Shown: positions 1,751 to 13,505 of the stretch, piece after piece
How the letters are laid out: each line of letters begins with the position of its first letter
How positions within the stretch are numbered: the first letter of the stretch is position 1
NCBI RefSeq assembly: GCF_003443615.1
Contig: NZ_CP031967.1
Location: 4,340,001 to 4,404,000 of the forward strand
DNA length: 64,000 nucleotides
Source of the DNA: Alteromonas sp. BL110
Lineage (GTDB): Bacteria > Pseudomonadota > Gammaproteobacteria > Enterobacterales > Alteromonadaceae
Direction of reading: 5' to 3'
Position numbers and translations under genes: made by a program
The notes under the pieces: generated by a model
What the model was told of the DNA's origin: nothing
Seen by the model: only the letters and a program-made list of their open reading frames with translations
Databases searched by the model: none

Positions 1751-3073
1751 TTAAGGCCTTGCATATTTTATCTCTCCGTTCACCAATGTATAGTATGTTT
1801 CGCCATACAGGGTTTTGTTGATAAAGGGCGAGTTTTGTGACTTGGAAGCAAAAAATGAAGGCGTTACTGTAAACGGCGTATTTAAATCAAATAGCGCCAA
1901 GTCTGCGTTTGCGCCTTCTTTAATTCGTCCGCATTTAATATTAAATATCGCACCAGCTTGCTTACTCATAAGATCAATAGCAGTATTTAAATTAAGCTTT
2001 CCTGTTTTAACAAAATGCGTGTAGATAAGCGCAAATGCGGTCTCTAACCCTATAATACCAAAGGGCGCTTTCTCAATAGGCAAGGCTTTTTCATGAGGAG
2101 CGTGGTCAGTTGCAATAGCATCAATTATCCCTTCTGTTAACGCCTCTCGACACGCAAGCATATCGTGTTTAGAACGAAGGGGCGGGTTCATTTTCCAATT
2201 TGCGTCAAGCGTACCATCAGCCTTAACGAGTATATCTTCATCGCAAAGCAATAAATGATGAGGTGAAACCTCTACAGTTACATTAGCCCCTTTTGCTTTT
2301 GCCTGTCTAATAGCCTCTATCGAGTCAGCGGTAGAAACGTGTAAAACGTGATAATGCCCACCTGTTTCTGCACTGTAATCACACCCCCGCTTTACATGTA
2401 CCGACTCTGAGGATGCCTTAATCCCCTTAACATTATGTTTTCTAGATACATCTCCTTCGTGGATAGCGCCGCCGTTTGATAACCTTTCATCTTCGCTATG
2501 ATCGAGCACTGGTATCCCAAGCGCTTTGGCGTTGATAAGTGCCTGCTTAAACAAGCTGTTATTTTGAACGCCTTTACCATCGTCAGTAATGGCAACGGCG
2601 CCTGCTGCTTGGAGAGTTTCAAAATCTGTTATCTCTTTCCCTTCTAACCCCTTTGAGAGCGCCCCTGTCGGATAAACTTTACACAGCCCCGTCGTGCTGG
2701 CTTTTTCTACCATAAAGGCAATTGTATCTTCATTATCAGCTGTGGGCGTTGTATTTGGCATTGATACTACCGAAGTAAATCCGCCTTTTACTGCTGCGCG
2801 GCTACCGGAGGCAATATCTTCTTTGTACTCCATGCCTGGCTCTCTAAAGTGTACTTGGGGGTCAAGCAAACCGGGAGAGAGGAATAAACCCGTCGCATCA
2901 ATTACTTTTTCAGAAGGTTTTTCGGTAGAAGTTCCTTGTGGCGCGGGTAATGGACATTCTGAAATCTGGACAATTTTGCCCTTTTCAATAGCAAGTGAAA
3001 TGCTGACAAGGTCGTGGCCATTTCCTCCCAACAAATGAGATGTAGTTAAAGCGTTATTAATTATGATCTTCAT
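1751..3073 (-). CDS. pyrC: Dihydroorotase, class I-like, probable zinc-responsive paralog (PyrC2)
   Basis: A 440-residue amidohydrolase catalysing reversible cyclisation of carbamoyl aspartate to dihydroorotate in pyrimidine synthesis. Motifs seen: DPQVHFREPG, SMPNTTP, VLDHSEDE, VEVSPHHL, HVSTADS and ATDHAPH. The first histidine of the usual HxH metal pair is glutamine here (codon at 2855-2857), while the other ligands appear kept. Start ATG 3073 has GAAGGGA five bases upstream; an earlier TTG at 3094 only includes that site. It sits 34 bp behind zur in the same direction, so the two form an operon. Zur-linked PyrC paralogs are known in other proteobacteria. Catalytic activity is inferred from the family. 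Confidence 0.82.
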   Translation of the reverse strand: MKIIINNALTTSHLLGGNGHDLVSISLAIEKGKIVQISECPLPAPQGTSTEKPSEKVIDATGLFLSPGLLDPQVHFREPGMEYKEDIASGSRAAVKGGFTSVVSMPNTTPTADNEDTIAFMVEKASTTGLCKVYPTGALSKGLEGKEITDFETLQAAGAVAITDDGKGVQNNSLFKQALINAKALGIPVLDHSEDERLSNGGAIHEGDVSRKHNVKGIKASSESVHVKRGCDYSAETGGHYHVLHVSTADSIEAIRQAKAKGANVTVEVSPHHLLLCDEDILVKADGTLDANWKMNPPLRSKHDMLACREALTEGIIDAIATDHAPHEKALPIEKAPFGIIGLETAFALIYTHFVKTGKLNLNTAIDLMSKQAGAIFNIKCGRIKEGANADLALFDLNTPFTVTPSFFASKSQNSPFINKTLYGETYYTLVNGEIKYARP

Positions 3074-3107
3074 AGGTCCCTTCGTATAAAGCAATTAAAA
3101 TTTGGGA

Positions 3108-3560
3108 TTATTGGCAGCGCGCGCAAATACATGCGACTTCTAGGTGAGGCGTTATAATCTCGCATTTAAACGCTTGCGCTTGTTGGACAAGATGTTCATA
3201 AACAACAGGCTCTACAATAGACTCTTCTACTGCGCCACAGCGAACACAAATTAGAAACTGAGAATACCCATGGTGTTCACAGCATTTAGCACGAGCACAT
3301 CCAATATACTTATTATTGAGGTTAAGTTTGTGAACTAAATTTGCCTCTGACAGGAATTCAAGTGCTCGATAAATAGTCATTGGTTTGATATTTTCGTTAT
3401 GCTGCTTTGCGCACAAATCTTTTATTTCATAGGCCGAAAGTGGAGAAGACGCTTCAATTAATATATTGAGTACCTGCTTGCGCTTCTGAGTTAAACGCAA
3501 TCCGTCTTCCTCACATTTATCCTGAGCTATAGCAAGTAAGTTTTGAAATCGTTGATCCAT
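3108..3560 (-). CDS. zur: Zinc uptake regulator Zur (Fur family)
   Basis: A 150-residue Fur-family repressor with the winged helix region (RLTQKRKQVLNILIE, PMTIYRALEFL) and structural zinc cysteines CVRCG and CICARC near the C terminus. The extra cysteine/histidine stretch GCARAKCCEHHGY is typical of Zur rather than Fur. The start is ATG 3560, preceded by GAGGATAG; a longer reading from 3686 would translate through the operator-like palindrome at 3636-3650 and is rejected. The two palindromes and the zinc-related neighbours all point to Zur. It probably represses itself plus the dihydroorotase behind it. Confidence 0.87.
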   Translation of the reverse strand: MDQRFQNLLAIAQDKCEEDGLRLTQKRKQVLNILIEASSPLSAYEIKDLCAKQHNENIKPMTIYRALEFLSEANLVHKLNLNNKYIGCARAKCCEHHGYSQFLICVRCGAVEESIVEPVVYEHLVQQAQAFKCEIITPHLEVACICARCQ

Positions 3561-3635
3561 TCTATCCTCAATCTGAAAGCGGCGAACGTAATGACCTAAG
3601 GCCCCTCGGTTGAAGGCAAACAACCAAACATCTAC

Positions 3636-3650
3636 TGTTACAGTATAACA
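3636..3650. promoter_or_regulatory. Second Zur box candidate, upstream of zur
   Basis: TGTTACAGTATAACA lies about 76 bp upstream of the zur start. It differs from the core of the 599-615 palindrome at only two of 15 positions, one of them the centre. This suggests autoregulation of the zur-pyrC operon. Confidence 0.65.
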
Positions 3651-3886
3651 TAACAACAGCATTATAAAATGAGTTGTATGAAACATGTCCGCATTTTGAT
3701 TAACTACTACCTAAGCGCTTTTGTCGTGGCAGTTCGGGCTCGCCTAGGGTTAACTAATAACGCTTTTACCCACTTTTGATATAAAGATACATACCAAAGT
3801 ATTAGCTAACGTATTTTTCTTAATTCAGCTTTATCGTTTAATTATCCCAACAAAAACAACTATTAAATTTACTTGAGGAATTAGCC

Positions 3887-4279
3887 ATGTTGAAAATAGT
3901 TAAAGCTTCTCTTGTTATTGCTGGGACTTTCGGTGTGTCATCAGTAGCACACGCTGATGTTGGCGAGGCATTGGCAAATATATGTACCATTGTGCAGGCC
4001 GACGATAAAGGCGAGCTTAGAAAGAAGATGCGTGCAGTTCAGTCTGATTATCGAATGAAACTAAAAGACTACTATTCGGGCGTAAGCTGCAGCGGTAATA
4101 GCCTTATCCGTACAGCGATGTTAAATAATGCAGTAGAGGCCGGAGAATTGCTGGTTAAAAAGATGCCAAAAAGCGACCTGCAAGCCCCTGAAGCTGACGG
4201 TAAAACCTTGCAAGCATGGGTGGCCGAAAACGGCTTGCAAGACAGTCCTATTGCAGCAGTACTCAACGAGCGGCTGTAA
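3887..4279 (+). CDS. Small exported protein, DUF3718-like, paralog 1
   Basis: A 130-residue protein with a signal peptide ending at VAHA/D and a mature part of about 107 residues with two cysteines (NICTIV, GVSCSG), which may form a disulfide in the periplasm. It contains the conserved block LANICTIVQADDK-ELRKKMR and a C-terminal DGKTLQAW segment. Two more copies lie at 10138 and 10847; this one is the most divergent. I believe the family is DUF3718, of unknown function, but could not check. Start: GAGGAATTAGCC before ATG. The 3' UTR carries a hairpin whose descending arm is complementary to the start region, followed by a terminator. Confidence 0.85.
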   Translation: MLKIVKASLVIAGTFGVSSVAHADVGEALANICTIVQADDKGELRKKMRAVQSDYRMKLKDYYSGVSCSGNSLIRTAMLNNAVEAGELLVKKMPKSDLQAPEADGKTLQAWVAENGLQDSPIAAVLNERL

Positions 4280-4291
4280 GACAATTTCACA

Positions 4292-4314
4292 CCATGTGAA
4301 CCAGTTCAACATGG
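4292..4314 (+). promoter_or_regulatory. 3' UTR hairpin with anti-start arm, copy 1
   Basis: CCATGTGAAC and GTTCAACATGG form a stem with one bulged A. TTCAACATGG (4305-4314) is the exact reverse complement of the start region CCATGTTGAA at 3885-3894; adding a G-U and an A-U pair gives 12 continuous pairs. The ascending arm is the start region with one T missing. Equivalent elements follow the two paralogs. Confidence 0.75.
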
Positions 4315-4340
4315 TTGCAGAGAAATCTGCACTTTAAGAA

Positions 4341-4361
4341 GCGACCTTCGGGTCGCTTTTT
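4341..4361 (+). terminator. Rho-independent terminator of DUF3718-like gene 1
   Basis: GCGACC-TTCG-GGTCGC followed by TTTTT: a GC-rich stem with a stable tetraloop and a T run, 62 bp after the stop codon. Confidence 0.88.
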
Positions 4362-4380
4362 CTTTGCAGAAAGGAAATAA

Positions 4381-4410
4381 AAAAGGAGAGTTAATATTAA
4401 CTCTCCTTTT
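4381..4410. terminator. Perfect 30-bp palindrome, probable terminator of the mannitol dehydrogenase gene
   Basis: AAAAGGAGAGTTAAT and its exact reverse complement follow each other without a spacer, ending in TTTT on both strands. It lies 24 bp beyond the stop of the minus-strand dehydrogenase gene and between convergent genes, so it can act in both directions. Confidence 0.7.
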
Positions 4411-4433
4411 GTTTATCTATGAGTAACTAATAC

Positions 4434-5951
4434 CTAACTAGCTTTAGCCACCGCTAGCTTATCTTCAGAAACCGTTTCACTTATTGAAAGCACTGGCTCA
4501 TTTTGGTAAATACGCGCTAAGAAAGCTTTATACCCTTTTGCAAATTCTTCGTTTTGAGCAAGCTCGCCAAACACTTCCTCTATCTTCAAGAAGCTTAAGC
4601 TGTCTGTCTCATTTTTCTGAGCAGCGCGATGAAGCATATCAGACAATACGTCGTTAATTTCTAGCGGCTTTCCATCTTGAGACGCGTGTTTATCTGAATA
4701 ATACGACCAACACGCGACGACTAAGGCACTAATACTTACATCGCGCCCTGCTGCTAAGTTATCTCGCACCGTAGGCAGCAAAAATACCGGTAGTTTGGCT
4801 GAACTTTCTAAACAAATACGCGCCAATGTATCTTTGATGAAAGGGTTTGAAAAACGAGAAATTAACGTATCGCGATAATCAAATACATCAATGCCTTCAA
4901 CTTGATCAAGCGTAGGCATTACCTCTTTTTCCATAAAAATAGACAATAGTTGCTTTAACTGCGCTGCTTCTACACTCTCGTGGATAGTATCTAGGCCGGC
5001 AACTGAACCAACTAACCCTAGAACTGAATGCCCGGCATTGAGCATGCGTAGCTTTAACTTTTCATAAGGCGCTACGTCGCTAACAAACTGTGCACCCACT
5101 TCGTCGAATTGTGGCTTAGTGTTACAAAAGTCATTTTCAATAACCCACTGATCGAAAGGCTCACACACTACAGGCCAGCTATCTTCAATACCCTGCGCTT
5201 TTAATGTAACAATATCTTCGCTTGTGGTAGCAGGTGTAATTCTGTCTACCATAGAGTTAGGAAAACTGACATTTTCGTTAACCCATTGCGCTAATGCTTG
5301 ATCAAATAGCTCAATGTAGGCTAGCAGCATCTTCTTCAATACATGGCCATTGTGCTGGATGTTGTCACAAGACATAACGGTAAAAGGCTTAACGTTATTT
5401 TCCTTACGCTTTTTAATAGCAGCAACTAAATAACCAAACACTAGTCTTGGATTTTTGGGGTTTTCAATGTCATGAATAACGTCTGGGTTAGTGGTAATAA
5501 ACTCCCCCGTAGACGCATCAAAGTTATAACCACCTTCCGTAATAGTCAAAGAAACAATACGTACCTCAGCCTCAGACATTTTATCTATAACTGCTTGAGG
5601 GTCGTCTGGCGCCATCATAAATCCAGTCATTGCACCTATAACTGATGCAACGCGTGAGCCGTCATTGTGTTTTTCAACTAGGGTATAAAGGTTATCCTGC
5701 TCATCGAACACTTTTTTCATTGCTCGGTCGTTTTCACGAAGACCGACGCCGCAAATGCCCCAAGACAAATCGCCGGTTTTTGCCATCAGCCTGTCTACGT
5801 ACATGGCTTCATGTGCACGATGAAATCCGCCTACCCCAATGTGAATGATACCTGTTTGAACATTCTCCACATCATAGGCTGGGCCCTGAATACCAGCCGG
5901 TAACGACGGTAAATTAGCTTTATTTAATAAAATAGACGTTTGAGATTGCAT
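4434..5951 (-). CDS. mtlK: Mannitol 2-dehydrogenase family polyol dehydrogenase
   Basis: A 505-residue NAD(P)-dependent long-chain polyol dehydrogenase that would oxidise mannitol or a similar alditol to a ketose. The N-terminal cofactor region reads IIHIGVGGFHRAHEAMY, with SLTITEGGY and FTVMSCDN following; the catalytic Lys-Asn-His set is seen in LKLRMLNAGHSVL (about residues 297-310). It is closer to Pseudomonas MtlK (mannitol/arabinitol) than to UxuB fructuronate reductase, judged from GVGGFHRAH and GICGVGLR. The usual LNGSH is LNAGH here, so the substrate may differ. It starts 10 bp behind the permease gene and is probably co-transcribed with it. Confidence 0.85.
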   Translation of the reverse strand: MQSQTSILLNKANLPSLPAGIQGPAYDVENVQTGIIHIGVGGFHRAHEAMYVDRLMAKTGDLSWGICGVGLRENDRAMKKVFDEQDNLYTLVEKHNDGSRVASVIGAMTGFMMAPDDPQAVIDKMSEAEVRIVSLTITEGGYNFDASTGEFITTNPDVIHDIENPKNPRLVFGYLVAAIKKRKENNVKPFTVMSCDNIQHNGHVLKKMLLAYIELFDQALAQWVNENVSFPNSMVDRITPATTSEDIVTLKAQGIEDSWPVVCEPFDQWVIENDFCNTKPQFDEVGAQFVSDVAPYEKLKLRMLNAGHSVLGLVGSVAGLDTIHESVEAAQLKQLLSIFMEKEVMPTLDQVEGIDVFDYRDTLISRFSNPFIKDTLARICLESSAKLPVFLLPTVRDNLAAGRDVSISALVVACWSYYSDKHASQDGKPLEINDVLSDMLHRAAQKNETDSLSFLKIEEVFGELAQNEEFAKGYKAFLARIYQNEPVLSISETVSEDKLAVAKAS

Positions 5952-5961
5952 AAAAACCTTA

Positions 5962-7677
5962 TTAGCTTTGAAGCGCTTTCTGACGACGCATCGCCCAATA
6001 CGCTGTAACGAAATAGATAACGGTGCACGCGAACCCTATATTGAAAAATAGATCTCGGTTCGACTCGTACACGGCAAGCGTGTCACTAAGAGAAAAAGTT
6101 TTAATTGCAAGCGCAATGGACACAAGCAAGCTAGCCACAGATGTAAGGCGCAATAATTTAGTTACCGCGCTGATATCTTCAACGTGATCGTTTTCTAACG
6201 CCGCTTCTTGCTGTTGGTGTGCTTCAACGCGCGCATCGAAAGCCTCTACCTGCGCTTCTTGTTCTGGGTAAGACTGTTTTGCACCATACTTGGCTGCAAG
6301 CACCGTATATACCGCAATAGTAAAGAACCAGGTTGGTATAAACAGGTAGTAGAATGAAATAACATCTAGCGCATTTAAACCAAAGCCGAACACAAGTCCC
6401 AAGCCCCAACTAGCAACAGCTGGCGTACTATGGGTAAGACTTTGATAGTGAGCCCAGTAGCGTGTATATCCAATGCGTGGGAAAATCATATGCTCTGCAA
6501 ATACTATTGCACCCACTGGAACAACCAGTAGCCCAGCATAAGTTAATAGTGGTAACAACTTGGTAAATACGAATGGGAAACAAGCAATAGCTACCGTGAC
6601 CATACCTACAATCGCCGTGGTTTTGGTGCGTGATTTATCTTTAAAAATAGCTTGTGCAGCAAGTCCAGCACGATAAAGGTTAGCGTTTGCGGTTGTCCAA
6701 CCTGCAACGATAACGATAACAAGACCTGATAAACCTAGCGCGTGGAAAGCAACATCGCCTGGGTCGAGTTCAACAATAGATTTTTGAACGATAACCGCAG
6801 TTCCAGCCCCCATAATTCCTGCTGAAATCCATGCAACATAGTGGCCAAATAACATACCAGCTGATGTGCAAAGGCCGTAGCGTTTGCGCTTTGCAAATCG
6901 AAGTAGCGCCATGTCGATAAGACCGAAATGGGTGATGGTATTTGCTGCCCACGAGAAGCCAATAACTTCTAATAAGCCGATACCTGGTTCACCACTTTGC
7001 GTTAATCCCGTCCATACCGACGTACTTCCGATATGCATAAAGTCATCCCATGATGTTAAAAAGGTTTGCCCTATTACTGATTCGGCCAAAGCAGGCATAA
7101 GGATAAGTGGTCCACAGATAAACATTGTGAATAACCAAGGTGCACAAATGCGAGAGAAGTCCGATACGGCGTTAAATCCGTACATGGCAACAAACACAAC
7201 GATAACGCCTACTGCTAACACTACAGCAACAAAGGCTAAATTAGTCGGGTACCAGTTCAACTGCGCAGGGATATTTAAGGCAAAGCGCACCGCCGTTGCC
7301 GACACGGTAATCATCGCAGCGGATATCACGGTAAATATGACCACATTCGCCCAATTATAGAGCTTGGTCATTGAGTCACCTGCTATCTTCTGAAGATAAG
7401 AGTACAGGCTCAAACGGGTTTCAACAGCTATAGGTGTTGTGATAAGTGTCCAGCTTAAAACAGCCAGTAGGTTACCAATAAGTAAGCCTAACAAGATATC
7501 GGTCATGGTGGCGCCTAAGGCGACAAACGTTGCACCAAAAACAAATTCTGTTGCAGCAACATGTTCACCGGCATACAAGCCCATGAAATGCTTCCATCCC
7601 TTTAATTTATGTTTAGCGACAGGGAGTTGCTCATCGCTTACTTGTGAAATATCAATATCGCTCGACGTTGACTTCAT
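5962..7677 (-). CDS. NCS1-family (purine-cytosine permease-like) transporter, probable polyol permease
   Basis: A 571-residue integral membrane protein with about twelve hydrophobic segments and an N-terminal GWKHFMGLYAGEHVAATEFVFGA block of the nucleobase:cation symporter-1 type. A long charged loop (about residues 465-500) precedes the last membrane pair. ATG 7677 is used; the TTG two codons earlier has no better site. The family normally moves nucleobases, hydantoins or vitamins, but this gene leads directly into a mannitol-type dehydrogenase and faces a SorC-type sugar regulator, so a polyol or sugar substrate is inferred. I cannot assign the substrate from sequence alone. Confidence 0.8.
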   Translation of the reverse strand: MKSTSSDIDISQVSDEQLPVAKHKLKGWKHFMGLYAGEHVAATEFVFGATFVALGATMTDILLGLLIGNLLAVLSWTLITTPIAVETRLSLYSYLQKIAGDSMTKLYNWANVVIFTVISAAMITVSATAVRFALNIPAQLNWYPTNLAFVAVVLAVGVIVVFVAMYGFNAVSDFSRICAPWLFTMFICGPLILMPALAESVIGQTFLTSWDDFMHIGSTSVWTGLTQSGEPGIGLLEVIGFSWAANTITHFGLIDMALLRFAKRKRYGLCTSAGMLFGHYVAWISAGIMGAGTAVIVQKSIVELDPGDVAFHALGLSGLVIVIVAGWTTANANLYRAGLAAQAIFKDKSRTKTTAIVGMVTVAIACFPFVFTKLLPLLTYAGLLVVPVGAIVFAEHMIFPRIGYTRYWAHYQSLTHSTPAVASWGLGLVFGFGLNALDVISFYYLFIPTWFFTIAVYTVLAAKYGAKQSYPEQEAQVEAFDARVEAHQQQEAALENDHVEDISAVTKLLRLTSVASLLVSIALAIKTFSLSDTLAVYESNRDLFFNIGFACTVIYFVTAYWAMRRQKALQS

Positions 7678-8136
7678 CTTCAAATCTCTTGTTGTAGGTG
7701 GCCGTCCCTTATTTAAAAATCACTTTTGAGCATTCGCTCACTATATGGGACATATCTCATTTCGGTAGATATTTGCACATGGAAGTACAATTGTAAATAC
7801 CTATTAACAAAACAAAGTGCGATGTTAGTACATTTTTAACACAGTATTATTTGCTATTTTTTCGCCAAAATAGCGCTTATACGAAGCTAATCCTTTGAAC
7901 TTACGAGAAAATGGCGAGACAGTAATTGTTAAAAAGTTGAATAATAAAGATACGCTTTCACTATGCTCTTTACCAAAGTGTTTTAAAAGGTAGAAAGCAA
8001 AGCACCAATTCCTTTACACTTAGGCAAATGTACACGCTGTTTTATTATGTCATTACCAACCTGATGGTATGTTCTTTTCCTTTTGGTAGTGAAGTCTTCG
8101 TATAACTGGTGTTTTTGATATGAGGAAAAGTAACCT
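7678..8136. promoter_or_regulatory. Divergent control region of the polyol cluster, no gene seen
   Basis: The 459 bp between the permease and the phosphatase/regulator pair hold no credible coding frame. An inverted repeat ATATCT-9-AGATAT at 7752-7772, about 75 bp before the permease start, is a possible operator for the SorC-type regulator. The region is A+T-rich and presumably carries both promoters. Confidence 0.4.
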
Positions 8137-8832
8137 TTGCAAACAACTACCGTAAAGTTAGTGATCTTTGATTGTGACGGTGTACTCATTGATAGCGAAG
8201 TGTTGTCTATGGAAGCTTGGCAGGAAGTTCTAACGGACTATAACATTTCTTTATCGAAGCAGTACTTTATCGATCACTTTCTTGGTAAAAGCGTAGAACA
8301 CGTAGAGAAGATACTAACAACCCACTTTTGCTTTGAGTTGACTGACGCAGTTATAGAGGGCTTTCATGCTCTGCTCTATGAAAAGTTTGAGCACTCATTG
8401 CGAAGGACGCCAGGCGTCATTAACGTACTGTCAAATCTTGATGCCCATAACATTCCCTATTGTGTCGCCACGAGCAGCTCTCCCGAAAGGACGACTAAAG
8501 CGTTAAAAAGCACCGGCCTTTTCTCTTATTTTGAGGGACGTATTTTCACGCGCTCTATGGTAAAGAACGGTAAACCAGCACCAGACCTGTTTTTACATGC
8601 TGCGGCAACAATGGGGATAAAACCTGAAAACTGCTTAGTTATTGAAGACTCTCAGCCCGGTTTAGCCGCAGCAGTAGCCGCCAAGATGAACTCCTTTCAT
8701 TTTACCGGTGGTGCACATTTACATAGCGATATAAAAGCTGGTACTACAAATGACAGCAAATCTCTCAATTCATGGGACGAATTTTATTCTCTTCTCCCTG
8801 ACATTTTCGACGCGAGAAAAATAAATGAGTAA
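8137..8832 (+). CDS. HAD-superfamily phosphatase (beta-phosphoglucomutase/YieH-like)
   Basis: A 231-residue haloacid-dehalogenase-fold hydrolase. The nucleophile motif is FDCDGVLIDSE, motif II is ATSSSPER, the motif III lysine is in NGKPAPDLF, and motif IV is VIEDSQPG. An alpha-helical cap lies between motifs I and II. The start is TTG with GAGGAAAAG seven bases upstream; no ATG gives a full motif I. It overlaps the regulator gene by 8 bp. In polyol operons such enzymes remove phosphate from sugar or polyol phosphates, but a mutase-like role cannot be excluded. Confidence 0.82.
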   Translation: MQTTTVKLVIFDCDGVLIDSEVLSMEAWQEVLTDYNISLSKQYFIDHFLGKSVEHVEKILTTHFCFELTDAVIEGFHALLYEKFEHSLRRTPGVINVLSNLDAHNIPYCVATSSSPERTTKALKSTGLFSYFEGRIFTRSMVKNGKPAPDLFLHAAATMGIKPENCLVIEDSQPGLAAAVAAKMNSFHFTGGAHLHSDIKAGTTNDSKSLNSWDEFYSLLPDIFDARKINE

Positions 8833-9781
8833 GAAAGCACAAAACGAACTCAACAAACTAGACGAAGCCGCAAGAGCAGGATGGATGTATTACGTTGGGG
8901 GCAAAACACAAGACGAAATTGCGAAGACACTCAACACATCACGCCAGAGCGCTCAGCGTCTTGTGGCATTATCTATGTCAGAAGGCTTGGTTAAGGTGCG
9001 TTTAGAGCATCCCATAGCCAGATGCATGGAGCTGGCGCAAGGCATTAAAGAAAAGTTTGGGCTCACGTTTTGCGAAGTGGTACCCAACGTCGATGAAGAC
9101 CCAAACTCTACTCAGGGTCTCGGCCAAGCAGGAGCTGCGGCCATAGAGCGTGCCCTTAAATTTGATACGCCACAAACTATTGCTTTTGGCACAGGGCGCG
9201 TTCTTCGAGCGTGTGCAGATGAACTATCTATTCTTCATTGTCCCCAGCATAAAATAGTGTCGCTTGTAGGCAATATTGCAGATAACGGCGAAGCAACACG
9301 ATATGATGTTGCCGTTCACGTTGCTGATAGAGTAAAAGCGCAGCATTACCCCATGCCGACACCGGTTATAGCCTCAAGTAAATCAGAACGCGAAGTGTGG
9401 CAGCAACAACAGCATATATCACGCATTCACTCGCTTGCCGAGCAGGCAGATATTAGTTTTGTTGGTATCGGCAATTTAGGGAGCGTATCGCCGCTTTACA
9501 AAGACGGCTTTATCGGTGATGACGAATTAGGCGTATTGTCTGACTCTGGCGCGTGTGGCGAAATAATAAGTTGGATCTTTAATGAAGAAGGCGCACTCAT
9601 AAAATGCGATATTAATGAAAGAGTGACAAGCTTTAAATTGAAAGCTACGCCAGAAAAGCCTGTTATTGGCGTGGCAGCGGGCGATAGTAAATTTAAAGCA
9701 ATAAGGGGCGCACTTCGCTCTAAGTTTTTGAATGGCCTTATCACAACAGAACGTACAGCATCAGCATTACTCGAAATTTAA
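8825..9781 (+). CDS. SorC/DeoR-type sugar-binding transcriptional regulator
   Basis: A 318-residue regulator with an N-terminal helix-turn-helix (QDEIAKTLNTSRQSAQRLVALSMSEGLV, about residues 28-56) and a C-terminal effector domain related to ribose-5-phosphate isomerase/DeoR C domains (FGTGRVL, VGIGNLG, DSGACGEI, GVAAGDSKFKAIRGAL). Members respond to sugars, polyols or their phosphates. It is translationally coupled to the phosphatase and divergent from the permease-dehydrogenase operon, which it probably controls through the 7678-8136 region. Confidence 0.87.
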   Translation: MSKKAQNELNKLDEAARAGWMYYVGGKTQDEIAKTLNTSRQSAQRLVALSMSEGLVKVRLEHPIARCMELAQGIKEKFGLTFCEVVPNVDEDPNSTQGLGQAGAAAIERALKFDTPQTIAFGTGRVLRACADELSILHCPQHKIVSLVGNIADNGEATRYDVAVHVADRVKAQHYPMPTPVIASSKSEREVWQQQQHISRIHSLAEQADISFVGIGNLGSVSPLYKDGFIGDDELGVLSDSGACGEIISWIFNEEGALIKCDINERVTSFKLKATPEKPVIGVAAGDSKFKAIRGALRSKFLNGLITTERTASALLEI

Positions 9782-10137
9782 CACTATCTCTCACCGAGTA
9801 AACAAACAAATTTGATGAACTATTAGTGCCAACCTACTAAGACTAACTGGGCGCTAATTCGCTTTTCGACATAGTTAAAATGCAAAAAAACGGCATCAAA
9901 CGCTGTTTTTTTGCACTTTATTTGATGCTTTAACAATTGATACTCAAAAGCCCTCTATCTCGCCAACGCCTTTAATACTAAAGGCTATAGCGCTCCCCTA
10001 CCCACTTACACCTTTAGTATAAGGTATTAGCCGATATACTTAGTTATTTCAGTGAGTATTTTTTAAGCGCTTTGGTTGTTTTTTAATTAATCCCGAACAA
10101 ACAAACCGATTAATAAAACAAACGAAGGAATTTAACC
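9782..10137. other. Intergenic region with terminator and promoter of DUF3718-like gene 2
   Basis: No coding frame is supported in these 356 bp. They contain the terminator of the SorC-type gene, the inverted repeats CCTTTA-ATAC-TAAAGG (9970-9985) and a GTATAAGGTATTAGC segment (about 10018-10031) that resembles sequence upstream of the first paralog, and the AAGGAATTTAACC ribosome site of gene 2. Confidence 0.4.
9881..9914 (+). terminator. Terminator of the HAD/SorC operon
   Basis: TGCAAAAAAACGGC and GCTGTTTTTTTGCA pair over 14 positions with one G-U, around a short CATCAAACG-type loop. The descending arm is T-rich. Confidence 0.7.
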
Positions 10138-10536
10138 ATGTTGAAAATCGTTAAAACCTCTCTAGTAATTGCAGCCTCTACTCTAGCTTTTTCTAACACA
10201 GTTCATGCTGACGACGTAAACGAGGCTTTGGCAAATATCTGTACTATTGTACAAGCTGACGATAAGAGCGAACTGCGAAAAAAAATGCGTCGCGTTCAGT
10301 CTGACTTCAAATTGAAACTACGCGATTATTACGCAGGTGTTTCTTGCGGTGGACAAAGTCTTATTCGAACAGCACTTACTAGTAACGCTGTGGAAGTAGG
10401 CACATTGCTTGTGAAAAAAATGCCTAGTAAAGACCTAACGCAACCAGAGTCGGACGGTAAAACCTTGCAAGCATGGATTGCAGAACAAGGCTTACAAAGC
10501 TCGCCAATCTCAGCGGAGCTTAACGACAGGATTTAG
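10138..10536 (+). CDS. Small exported protein, DUF3718-like, paralog 2
   Basis: A 132-residue protein with signal peptide (cleavage near VHA/D) and the same LANICTIVQADDK and DGKTLQAW blocks and the same two mature cysteines as the copies at 3887 and 10847. Proteins 2 and 3 are very alike, yet their codons differ at many third positions, so the tandem duplication is not recent and both proteins are under selection. Start: GAAGGAATTTAACC before ATG, shared with copy 3. It has its own 3' UTR hairpin and terminator, so it is a separate transcription unit. Function unknown. Confidence 0.87.
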   Translation: MLKIVKTSLVIAASTLAFSNTVHADDVNEALANICTIVQADDKSELRKKMRRVQSDFKLKLRDYYAGVSCGGQSLIRTALTSNAVEVGTLLVKKMPSKDLTQPESDGKTLQAWIAEQGLQSSPISAELNDRI

Positions 10537-10553
10537 ATACCGTTTTCACAACG

Positions 10554-10576
10554 CCATGTGAACCAATTCAACATGG
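10554..10576 (+). promoter_or_regulatory. 3' UTR hairpin with anti-start arm, copy 2
   Basis: CCATGTGAA-CCAA-TTCAACATGG forms a stem with one bulged A. TTCAACATGGT (10567-10577) is the exact reverse complement of ACCATGTTGAA at 10135-10145, the start of the same gene, and equally of the start of gene 3. Confidence 0.75.
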
Positions 10577-10596
10577 TAGCAGTACACGCTGCGCTC

Positions 10597-10624
10597 AAGG
10601 CCCCTCTGCTACGGGGCCTTTTTT
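10597..10624 (+). terminator. Terminator of DUF3718-like gene 2
   Basis: AAGGCCCC-TCTGCTAC-GGGGCCTT followed by a T run. Confidence 0.88.
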
Positions 10625-10846
10625 ATTGCCTTTTCTCTACAGCTTACCCTTTGTAGTTTAATACGAATGCTTTGGTAGCAAAAACGTCGACTGAGATAAT
10701 TAGCGAAGGAGCAAACGTATATTTGAAAGGTATACTTTGGTATACCCTGTTATTTTACAACATGTTTTTCAGTAACTTAGATTCAGGTTTAATACATCTC
10801 AACGAACAAACATAATCTTAATAACAACAAACGAAGGAATTTAACC

Positions 10847-11245
10847 ATGTTGAAAATCGTTAAAACTTCTCTAGTAATTGCGGCATCTACTTTAGCTTTT
10901 TCTAACGCAGCTCAGGCTAATGACATCAACGAAGCACTTGCGAACATCTGTACTATTGTTCAGGCAGATGACAAGGGTGAACTTCGTAAGAAAATGCGTA
11001 GCGTTCAGTCAGACTACAAACTTAAACTTCGCGACTACTACTCGGGTATTTCATGCAATGGTCAAAGCCTTATTCGCACAGCGATCACAAACAATGCAGT
11101 TGAAGTAGGTACTCTGCTTGTAAAGAAAATGCCGAGTAAAGACTTAGCTCAGCCAGAGTCAGACGGCAAAACGCTACAAGCTTGGATTGCAGAGCAAGGT
11201 CTACAAAGCTCACCTATTTCAGCTGAACTTGACGGCAGAATTTAA
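10847..11245 (+). CDS. Small exported protein, DUF3718-like, paralog 3
   Basis: A 132-residue third copy: the signal peptide MLKIVKTSLVIAASTLAFSN is identical to copy 2, cleavage is near AQA/N, and the mature part keeps both cysteines and the DGKTLQAW block. The ribosome site GAAGGAATTTAACC is identical to copy 2. Codons such as CGT, CTT and GCA dominate, possibly a sign of higher expression. It ends in the same hairpin-plus-terminator arrangement. It is followed by a decayed hydrolase and the beta-oxidation genes on the other strand. No function can be assigned. Confidence 0.87.
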   Translation: MLKIVKTSLVIAASTLAFSNAAQANDINEALANICTIVQADDKGELRKKMRSVQSDYKLKLRDYYSGISCNGQSLIRTAITNNAVEVGTLLVKKMPSKDLAQPESDGKTLQAWIAEQGLQSSPISAELDGRI

Positions 11246-11263
11246 TACAACAAATTAATCACA

Positions 11264-11289
11264 CCATGTGATACAGCAGTTCAACATGG
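11264..11289 (+). promoter_or_regulatory. 3' UTR hairpin with anti-start arm, copy 3
   Basis: CCATGT(GA) pairs with (TC)AACATGG around a longer loop than in copies 1 and 2. TTCAACATGGT at 11280-11290 is the exact reverse complement of ACCATGTTGAA at 10844-10854. Loop changes with preserved arms suggest the arms matter. Confidence 0.72.
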
Positions 11290-11310
11290 TAGCGGCAGGA
11301 CGCCGCACTG

Positions 11311-11331
11311 GAGGCCCCTTTTAGGGGCCTC
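11311..11331 (+). terminator. Terminator of DUF3718-like gene 3
   Basis: GAGGCCCC-TTTTA-GGGGCCTC is a strong stem; the T run after it is weak (ACCCCTTTCT). Confidence 0.6.
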
Positions 11332-11339
11332 ACCCCTTT

Positions 11340-11575
11340 CTAAGCCTCTATAAAATCTATCACTTCTTTTTATAACCATTCAGGCTTTTCCCCGTGTAAC
11401 CAATGCGACGCGCTGGAACTAAACCACGTTGTAATGAGCGGTACATGGTGTTCAATTCTATCTCACACACTTATATCAAACGCATCATCCTGCTCTCCCC
11501 ATAATAATAGCGTTGGGCAATGATCAACCTTTGAGTATTGAGAGAAAACCAATGTACTCTCTTTCTCTAAGTTAC
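11340..11575 (-). pseudogene. Remnant of an alpha/beta hydrolase gene (3' end only, two in-frame stops)
   Basis: Reading the minus strand from about 11575 in one frame gives SNLEKESTLVFSQYSKVDHC, then PTLLLWGEQDDAFDISV, a stop, DRIEHHVPLITTWFSSSASH, WLHGEKPEWL, a second stop, KEVIDFIEA and the final stop. LLLWGEQDD is the acid-residue strand and ASHWLHGEKPEW the catalytic histidine segment of alpha/beta hydrolases. The catalytic serine part is missing: upstream there is only a stop and then the nested hairpin at 11589-11664. This is a truncated, decayed gene rather than an active one. Confidence 0.75.
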
Positions 11576-11588
11576 TTTAAAAAACAAA

Positions 11589-11664
11589 AAAGGCCGAGTG
11601 AAAGAACATAGCCAATGATTAATGGTTCAATCATTTTCTCGGCTACGTTATTTTCTCGGCCTTT
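11589..11664. terminator. Nested 76-nt inverted repeat after the acyl-CoA dehydrogenase gene
   Basis: Three nested arm pairs: AAAGGCCGAG/CTCGGCCTTT outside, ATAGCC/GGCTA in the middle, ATGATT/AATCAT inside. On the minus strand the outer arm runs into TTTTTTG, so it should end the acyl-CoA dehydrogenase transcript. It is unusually long for a simple terminator. Confidence 0.65.
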
Positions 11665-11705
11665 AGTACGTTTTATATTAGCGCACTTTTTTCAACTTTA
11701 TGTGG

Positions 11706-13505
11706 TTACTCTATGGCAAACATACTCTCTGGCATAGACATTAGGTTGTCAGCGCCTGACTGCATTGCAGAAACCAGTGAGCGAGTGCGTGTCAACAAGC
11801 GGTCAAAATAGAACCCTGTTGTTAGGATCTTGCTTTTGTAGAACTCAGTTTCTGTACTACCCGCATCAAGTTGCTCTTGCGCTTTCACCGCCATTTTAAG
11901 CCAGAAGTAAGCCACGGTTACGTAGCCCGAGTACATTAGGTAGTCAACAGATGCTGCACCAATCTCATCAGGGTTTGACGCCGCAGCTTTACCAATATCC
12001 ATGGTAATTTGTTGCCACTCATCAAGATGAGAGTTCAGGGCATTCGTCCAAGCGCTAAACTGCGCGTTATCGCGAAGTGAGTTACAGTAGTCGCGTACTT
12101 CTTGTACAAATACATTAAGCAGCTCACCGTTAGACCCCATCACTTTACGTCCCAGCAGGTCTACTGCTTGAATACCAGTGGTCCCTTCGTACATGGTACA
12201 AATGCGTGTATCCCGCGCCAGCTGCTCCATGCCCCATTCTTTAATAAAGCCATGACCGCCGTAAACCTGCATGCCATAGCTAGTTGCTTCTTGAGCCGTT
12301 TCGGTCAAAAACGCTTTAACAATAGGCGTTAAGAAAGCAAGTTTAGCTTCTGCGACCTGCTTTGCTGCTGCATCATCGCCGTAGAGCGTGACATCAACCA
12401 TTTGCATGCAGTACGCCGCTAACGCTCGGTTGCCTTCAGCAAACGCTTTTTGTGTTAGTAGCATACGGCGCACATCAGGGTGCACAATAATTGGATCGGC
12501 AGGGCCATCAGGGTTTTTACGTCCAGTTAGTGAGCGAAACTGGATGCGGTCTTTTGCGTAGCGCAATGCGCCCTGGAAAGATGCTTCAGATGCAGCAAGA
12601 CCTTCTAGTCCAGTACCAATACGCGCGGTATTCATAAAAGTGAACATGCAGTTTAAGCCACGGTTAGGTGGACCAATTAAGAAGCCTTTAGCACCATCAA
12701 AGTTGATGACACAGGTAGCACTGGCTTTAATACCCATCTTATGTTCAATACTGCCACAGGCCACTGCGTTTCGATCTTGTTTTTCACCATCTTCAGATAC
12801 GTTGAACTTTGGTACAACAAACAGCGAAATACCTTTTGTACCCTCTGGCGCATCAGGTAAGCGCGCCAACACAATGTGTACGATATTCTCAGACATATCG
12901 TGCTCACCGGCAGAGATAAAGATTTTTGTGCCTGTTAAGCTGTAGCTGCCATCTTCTTGAGGTTCGGCACGGCATTTAAGCATACCTAAATCTGAGCCAC
13001 AGTGTGCTTCAGTTAGGCACATTGTGCCTGTCCACTCACCGCTAACCAGTTTTTCAAGAAACATTTTTTGCTGCAGCTCAGTACCGTGCGCTTTTAGCGT
13101 TTCCATACAGCCCTGACTTAGGCCTGGGTACATAGCCCAAGAATGGTTAGCGCCAGAAAACCATTCCGCGATAATAGAAGATAAAGAGTAAGGTAGCGCC
13201 TGGCCACCGAACTCTTCTGGATGAGACATACTTGGCCAACCACCTTCAACGTAGGTCTGGTAAGCTTCTTTAAAACCTTTTGGCGTTGTTACTTCACCGT
13301 CAACCCACTGACACCCTTCTTCATCGCCTGATGCATTAATTGGTGCAAGCGTGTTTTCCGAAAATTTAGCCGCTTCAGCAAAAATAGCAGACACTAAGTC
13401 TTCAGACGCTTCATCGAAACCCAGTTTTTGATAGTGACTTTGATAATCTAATAGCTCATGTGTTACAAACATGGCGTCACGTTGTGGAGCTTTATAACCT
13501 TCCAT
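11706..13505 (-). CDS. Acyl-CoA dehydrogenase (long form, AcdA/DmdC-like)
   Basis: A 599-residue FAD enzyme oxidising acyl-CoA to enoyl-CoA. It has the substrate/FAD segments MCLTEAHCGSDLG and GTKIFISAGEHD, the catalytic glutamate in MYEGTTGIQ (around residue 435), and an added C-terminal domain of about 130 residues that separates this long class from ordinary 380-residue forms. The class includes methylmercaptopropionyl-CoA dehydrogenase DmdC, but also general fatty acyl enzymes, so the chain specificity is open. ATG 13505 lies 9 bp behind the thiolase stop; a TTG two codons earlier is less likely. It forms an operon with the thiolase and ends at the nested hairpin. Confidence 0.86.
   Translation of the reverse strand: MEGYKAPQRDAMFVTHELLDYQSHYQKLGFDEASEDLVSAIFAEAAKFSENTLAPINASGDEEGCQWVDGEVTTPKGFKEAYQTYVEGGWPSMSHPEEFGGQALPYSLSSIIAEWFSGANHSWAMYPGLSQGCMETLKAHGTELQQKMFLEKLVSGEWTGTMCLTEAHCGSDLGMLKCRAEPQEDGSYSLTGTKIFISAGEHDMSENIVHIVLARLPDAPEGTKGISLFVVPKFNVSEDGEKQDRNAVACGSIEHKMGIKASATCVINFDGAKGFLIGPPNRGLNCMFTFMNTARIGTGLEGLAASEASFQGALRYAKDRIQFRSLTGRKNPDGPADPIIVHPDVRRMLLTQKAFAEGNRALAAYCMQMVDVTLYGDDAAAKQVAEAKLAFLTPIVKAFLTETAQEATSYGMQVYGGHGFIKEWGMEQLARDTRICTMYEGTTGIQAVDLLGRKVMGSNGELLNVFVQEVRDYCNSLRDNAQFSAWTNALNSHLDEWQQITMDIGKAAASNPDEIGAASVDYLMYSGYVTVAYFWLKMAVKAQEQLDAGSTETEFYKSKILTTGFYFDRLLTRTRSLVSAMQSGADNLMSMPESMFAIE

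Follow-up and report, generated by a model that had tools for sequence, protein, structure and literature searches.

The 3' untranslated regions (UTRs) of DUF3718 genes in Alteromonas and related genera carry an antisense module that is probably a start-codon-blocking feedback small RNA (sRNA) common to the DUF3718 paralogs, resembling OppZ and CarZ of Vibrio cholerae but family-wide. We analysed this module in and around a 64,000-nucleotide stretch of Alteromonas sp. BL110 (contig NZ_CP031967.1, positions 4,340,001 to 4,404,000; hereafter the window), in which hairpins complementary to the translation starts of three paralogs had been proposed to form a 3'-to-5' UTR switch of an undescribed kind (the original prediction).

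The three window genes lie on the forward strand, as do all their features given below: gene 1 (3887..4279; 130 aa, predicted exported), gene 2 (10138..10536; 132 aa) and gene 3 (10847..11245; 132 aa). Their proposed assignment to DUF3718 is borne out by PF12514 scores of 74.5, 70.8 and 77.3 bits, respectively, against a cut-off of 22.5 bits. The target box spanning the start codon of gene 1 is CCATGTTGAA (3885..3894), and that of genes 2 and 3 is ACCATGTTGAA (10135..10145 and 10844..10854). The 3' UTR of each gene contains the antisense arm, or seed, TTCAACATGGT (4305..4315, 10567..10577 and 11280..11290), that is, the 10-mer TTCAACATGG (4305-4314 in gene 1) followed by T, which complements these starts; the positions first given for arms and boxes are correct to the letter. 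With G-U pairs allowed, arm and start of gene 1 form 13 contiguous pairs. The 10-mer occurs six times in the window, always at these places (mean 0.14 and maximum 1 in 100 shuffles), and across the whole 4.46 Mb genome TTCAACATGGT has seven occurrences, of which three are the arms, two are the gene 2 and gene 3 starts, and two lie elsewhere. Three further DUF3718 copies in this genome have neither box; the closest named relatives of the window genes are copies in Alteromonas portus, abrolhosensis and marina. Of 133 codons compared between genes 2 and 3, 54 show synonymous and 16 non-synonymous differences, so the constant arms of these two genes do not reflect a recent copy, in agreement with the original prediction. 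All three tails have the same order of arm, second stem-loop and terminator-like hairpin (z -4.9 to -6.0). Stem-loop 2 adjoins the arm in gene 1 (4316..4331) and lies at 10579..10592 and 11292..11306 in genes 2 and 3; the terminator hairpins are at 4336..4361, followed by a T-rich stretch, and at 10597..10620, with a terminator-like hairpin at 11311..11331 in gene 3.

Pairing of the arm with its own and sister starts is conserved, always antisense, and set within a covarying RNA structure. One scan yielded 78 loci with 123 genes, of which 117 were kept (five window duplicates and one short fragment were dropped). In this sample, which was blind to the arm, 95 of the 117 relatives have a perfect 10-14 nt match between the tail and their own start, compared with at most 8 nt for the middle of the open reading frame (ORF) and at most 9 nt for the sense strand of the tail. 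Fourteen genes have matches of at least 10 nt in an upstream control stretch (-300..-170), presumably the tail of a preceding tandem copy. As background, we took 351 ORFs (at least 150 codons stop to stop, simple start choice) from the window and the 78 loci; a match of at least 10 nt between an ORF's own 3' UTR (130 nt) and its own start (-15..+15) is found in 26, all with DUF3718 starts. The chance estimate first offered, a few in ten thousand, is of the correct magnitude for a single gene; given that the match is conserved, a chance origin is untenable.

A larger set of 236 distinct genes combines the scan with 80 regions from other genera and loci from a family search, and comprises 122 MLK-type genes and 114 others; among the genera in the scan are Alteromonas, Aestuariibacter, Marisediminitalea, Salinimonas, Aliiglaciecola and Paraglaciecola. 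The arm core CAACATGG is present in the tails of 100 of the 122 MLK-type genes vs 3 of the 114 non-MLK genes. Inspected by eye, two of these three (L069, L013) have wrongly assigned or contig-cut starts and the other (L096) is a Shewanella-like single case. Because the core served as the selection rule for the 100 genes, its own constancy is by construction; the unselected letters beside it are T in 94, T in 100 and T in 99 of the 100, and columns farther upstream mostly hold less than 0.4 bits. Every one of the 100 arm-bearing genes has 9-15 contiguous arm/start pairs including G-U, and five starts with C to T at -1 or -2 (L080, L069, L126, L160, L120) keep their pairing through G-U. The arm lies 5-124 nt past the stop codon, usually 25-45 nt. 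On the start side, TTG is the second codon of 116 of the 117 genes, while it makes up 225 of the 1561 other Leu codons in these genes. Among non-MLK genes (117, with three added), antisense vs sense 9-, 10- and 11-mers shared by a gene's own tail and leader number 9 vs 12, 3 vs 4 and 1 vs 1; antisense matches are no commoner than sense ones, and antisense tails are therefore no general DUF3718 trait.

These data bear on whether the boxes might work as DNA, with a protein bound at start and tail box, or as recombination repeats. The tail box in Alteromonas is a near palindrome, in keeping with such a site, but the orientation is always antisense (0 of 236 genes have a sense copy of the core), the box is always 5' of the stem-loop, and the deviations at the start are those that G-U pairing tolerates. 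We consider this the least credible of the readings weighed here.

The widely kept unit is the arm plus a covarying stem-loop and usually a terminator, which is the arrangement of a 3' UTR-derived sRNA and not that of a local hairpin. Stem-loop 2 is no more than 5 nt away from the arm in 95 of 100 cases. Its covariation score is 0.420, vs 0.178 +/- 0.027 for shuffles (0 of 500 reach it) and at most 0.125 for slid versions, and the element therefore works as RNA. Of the alignments, A1 omits one of 46 rows for length, A2 was set aside because the coordinates of one row (L128) were wrong, and A4 holds 25 rows picked for short stems from 41 such, mostly from Alteromonas. A lenient terminator rule is passed by 86 of 100 elements. 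The gene for Hfq was found. A search of window positions 3000-12500 against Rfam gave 13 weak matches with E values up to 5, none near the gathering score.

The local hairpin is a more restricted feature. It had been described as an ascending arm nearly copying the start region, such that the element could either fold locally or pair with a start. The likeness is good in genes 1 and 2 (CCATGTGAAC at 4292..4301 and 10554..10563) and poorer in gene 3 (CCATGTGATAC at 11264..11274). An upstream CCATG partner is present in 71 of 103 cases. When the arm is held fixed and the preceding 30 nt are shuffled, the real sequence pairs better (p<0.05) in 59 of 65 distinct cases with CCATG (mean z -3.3), which would suit a hairpin that is itself the working part, for stability or termination, with the start match as its by-product. 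However, the arm persists where the partner is absent, and there only 9 of 30 cases reach the same level; paired arm changes, which a hairpin would tolerate, are not seen. In three loci (L060, L063, L071) the arm begins almost directly downstream of the stop codon. The local hairpin is strong in Alteromonas and weaker or missing elsewhere, so the proposed fold-or-pair switch is not a general feature, and a hairpin as the working part seems very improbable.

To look for elements that lack a matching start in cis, 40 Alteromonas genomes were scanned with an arm plus stem-loop model, scoring 150 of the 2145-3391 candidates per genome. This gave at least 88 matches in at least 39 of the 40 genomes; the census is incomplete, since it missed elements in two genomes (G299, G339) that another search found. 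Among the 88 matches listed, 85 adjoin the 3' side of a DUF3718 match as judged by eye; three of the 85 lie at contig ends where the gene is truncated. A pattern search of the same genomes gave 93 matches, nine of them away from DUF3718. Eight of these nine have neither stem-loop nor terminator and were rejected, as was one model match (G316), a chance hit.

In two genomes, putatively A. salexigens (L256) and A. antoniana (L260), the element stands behind a gene for a small exported protein of 88-90 aa. By hidden Markov model these proteins are unrelated to DUF3718 and are kin to each other (32%, E 1e-6); Pfam and NCBIfam gave nothing usable for them, and the UniRef name of one, DUF3019, is unconfirmed by Pfam. 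Their tails have 12 nt complementary to a DUF3718 start and 7-8 nt, which is chance level, to their own start. By eye, their leaders have the same kind of promoter box as the DUF3718 genes, as well as GTTTAAT and GAACAAAC motifs. A third genome (L259) has the arm altered to TTTCATCATGGT, with a 6 nt match to either start, and an extra ORF-less element behind a DUF3718 copy. Finally, genome G106 (L212/L257) contains an ORF-less element with arm, stem-loop and terminator (around position 818 of L257, minus strand), flanked by the same two neighbour genes as the small-protein locus L260; it may be a remnant, because the full stretch is absent from the rest of 58 genomes. A matching start is thus not always in cis (L256, L260, and the ORF-less L212/L257), which favours trans action over a purely intramolecular switch. 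We tentatively propose, though we regard it as somewhat less probable than its converse, that a family-wide antisense net has arisen, in which one start-codon seed in several paralog tails targets all of them, and which, along with the promoter box, has reached unrelated genes for small proteins as well as, in a single genome, a free-standing sRNA gene whose ORF has decayed, an sRNA born from a 3' UTR.

Several observations weigh against a trans-acting feedback sRNA. Two-sided covariation of arm and start, the check suggested originally, was not found in the 122 MLK-type and 114 other DUF3718 genes; both sides are nearly invariant and deviations are one-sided. Two other covariation measures for stem-loop 2 are unremarkable (pairs changed, 4 vs 2.4; pair types, 8 vs 6.8). 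The hairpin of window gene 3 has no T tract directly 3' and fails the terminator rule, and RNWUU sites of the RNase E type are weakly enriched in the stretch from stop codon to arm (58 of 97, 42.5 expected). The trans cases are few, namely three loci and one ORF-less element, and the whole 3' UTRs of L256 and L260 reach -15.9 and -16.8 kcal/mol with their own starts vs -19.5 with a DUF3718 start. In the minimum-energy folds of the three approximate full-length window mRNAs, the arm lies on its own start. The arm is also missing from 22 of the 122 MLK-type genes, 15 of which keep the exact ACCATGTTGAA; homologs that keep the start and lose the arm had been named as grounds for abandoning the idea, and they do occur, alongside the 100 genes that keep the arm.

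The arm-less copies may be targets in trans, or their starts may be held by other constraints. For 18 of the 22, another copy in the same assembly, matched by name, bears the arm, a situation compatible with trans action. Mapped on a protein tree of the 122 MLK-type genes, presence of the arm switches 11 times, and supported branches force at least 10 of these switches, so the arm has been lost repeatedly. By raw counts, the start is changed in 7 of 22 arm-less vs 10 of 100 arm-bearing genes (p 0.014); with control for the tree, the association of arm loss with start change is not significant (10 independent pairs, median p 0.63).

The folds of the naked window mRNAs indicate that fold-back in cis is also possible, as in the icaR mRNA of Staphylococcus aureus: the tail would fold onto its own start and block translation or invite RNase III, leaving sister mRNAs untouched. 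Arm and start share one transcript in nearly all cases, as the matches listed above attest, and icaR is a tested precedent in the excerpted report (PMC3868564). Such a purely intramolecular switch leaves unexplained the elements behind genes with non-matching starts or with no ORF, and it has no need of the sRNA-like stem-loop and terminator past the seed. Moreover, in the excerpted account of OppZ (PMC7398697), whose effect needs cleavage and not fold-back, the effect in cis was lost when RNase E cleavage was blocked. We therefore judge intramolecular pairing to be a rather unlikely explanation.

It is also conceivable that the sRNA mainly targets other mRNAs and that DUF3718 starts merely resemble its targets. 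In the window's genome the seed matches AACCATGTTGAAA, about 45 nt before an ORF for an exported protein (L085, near 1501), a possible extra target, and a 10 nt match lies at the start of a 184-aa ORF (L204). Against this, a Shine-Dalgarno-like sequence combined with CCATGTTG occurs at five places in the genome, three of which are DUF3718 starts, and the conserved pair is that of the seed and the DUF3718 start; a main role on other mRNAs is improbable. As a separate observation, three related genomes (L239, L241, L245) have AACCATGTTGAAAAAG a short distance upstream of another gene's start, on the opposite strand.

For the feedback sRNA, we envisage the following model. Each DUF3718 mRNA would end in a module that comprises the antisense seed UUCAACAUGGU and a stem-loop, usually together with an intrinsic terminator. 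We infer that the 3' end is freed, probably by RNase E, and stabilised by Hfq, and that the freed seed pairs with ACCAUGUUGAA over the start codon of its own and paralog DUF3718 mRNAs, blocking 30S binding. The outcome would be negative feedback independent of the product, limiting the summed output of the paralogs. Module copies that follow further co-regulated small genes, or that stand by themselves, would act on DUF3718 starts purely in trans, and in Alteromonas the local hairpin would additionally cover the seed, perhaps modulating or delaying its action. If this is correct, antisense tails limit an entire protein family of an abundant marine genus by gauging transcription and not protein; paralogs would share regulation, buffering gene duplication, and the family would offer a long-conserved natural test set for the origin of 3' UTR-derived sRNAs, the retention of their seeds and their independence as genes.

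The DUF3718 genes also share a promoter-region box. A sequence near ATACCTAAGTAT, with up to three mismatches, is present in 107 of the 122 MLK-type genes, mostly 95-135 nt before the start, vs 17 of 122 in shuffles. In the window it is ATACCAAAGTAT for gene 1 (3791..3802), and the palindrome GGTATACTTTGGTATACC upstream of gene 3 (10729..10746) is a box of the same kind. This palindromic box is probably a regulator site, and common promoter control would raise the tails together with the mRNAs they damp.

A different tail hairpin is found in MKK-type DUF3718 genes of two genomes of another genus (G172, G183; two genes, in L261 and L265). Its loop TCTTGACGCCTC complements the leader box CGTCAAG and the GAGGC Shine-Dalgarno region; the L261 tail matches its own Shine-Dalgarno region over 14 nt, and CGTCAAG is exact in 5 of 7 leaders inspected (including L262, L263 and L264). 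These tails are possibly a second kind of antisense tail with an unrelated sequence; the comparison of non-MLK genes given above shows no general enrichment.

As for the protein itself, the predicted structure of the gene 3 product (10847-11245) is all-helical, with a pLDDT of 85.8. The top fold matches in the Protein Data Bank (PDB) are mostly ankyrin-repeat proteins (TM about 0.5); with E values of 0.12 or worse, the likeness is a hint only. A sequence search of the PDB found no DUF3718 relative, and a literature search found no mention of DUF3718 or DUF3019.

Two known systems invite comparison. The icaR mRNA, in the excerpted report (PMC3868564), pairs a 7-nt UCCCCUG located 260 nt past the stop codon with the Shine-Dalgarno sequence and involves RNase III. 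Like icaR, the DUF3718 mRNA has a 3' motif complementary to its own ribosome-binding region. Unlike that of icaR, the match is 10-14 nt long, covers the start codon, not the Shine-Dalgarno sequence, and usually lies much nearer the stop, and the arm is followed by a covarying stem-loop and accompanied by evidence for trans action. OppZ and CarZ are described in the excerpted report (PMC7398697) as autoregulatory 3' UTR-derived sRNAs dependent on Hfq and RNase E, so that the claim of an undescribed kind does not hold; a literature search found no 3' UTR-derived sRNA described in Alteromonas bacteria. As far as that excerpt goes, the DUF3718 element shares with them its place at the transcript end, overall between stop codon and intrinsic terminator, and its complementarity to its own translation initiation region, and RNase E/Hfq feedback would be expected for it as well. 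OppZ and CarZ belong to polycistronic operons and hit one transcript, whereas the DUF3718 elements belong to single-gene paralogs with a common start-codon seed. In further contrast to the Vibrio systems as excerpted, the target is retained in DUF3718 paralogs that lack the arm, and unrelated genes, too, can have the module behind them. The kind of regulation is already known from OppZ and CarZ; the proposed family-wide scope is what differs.

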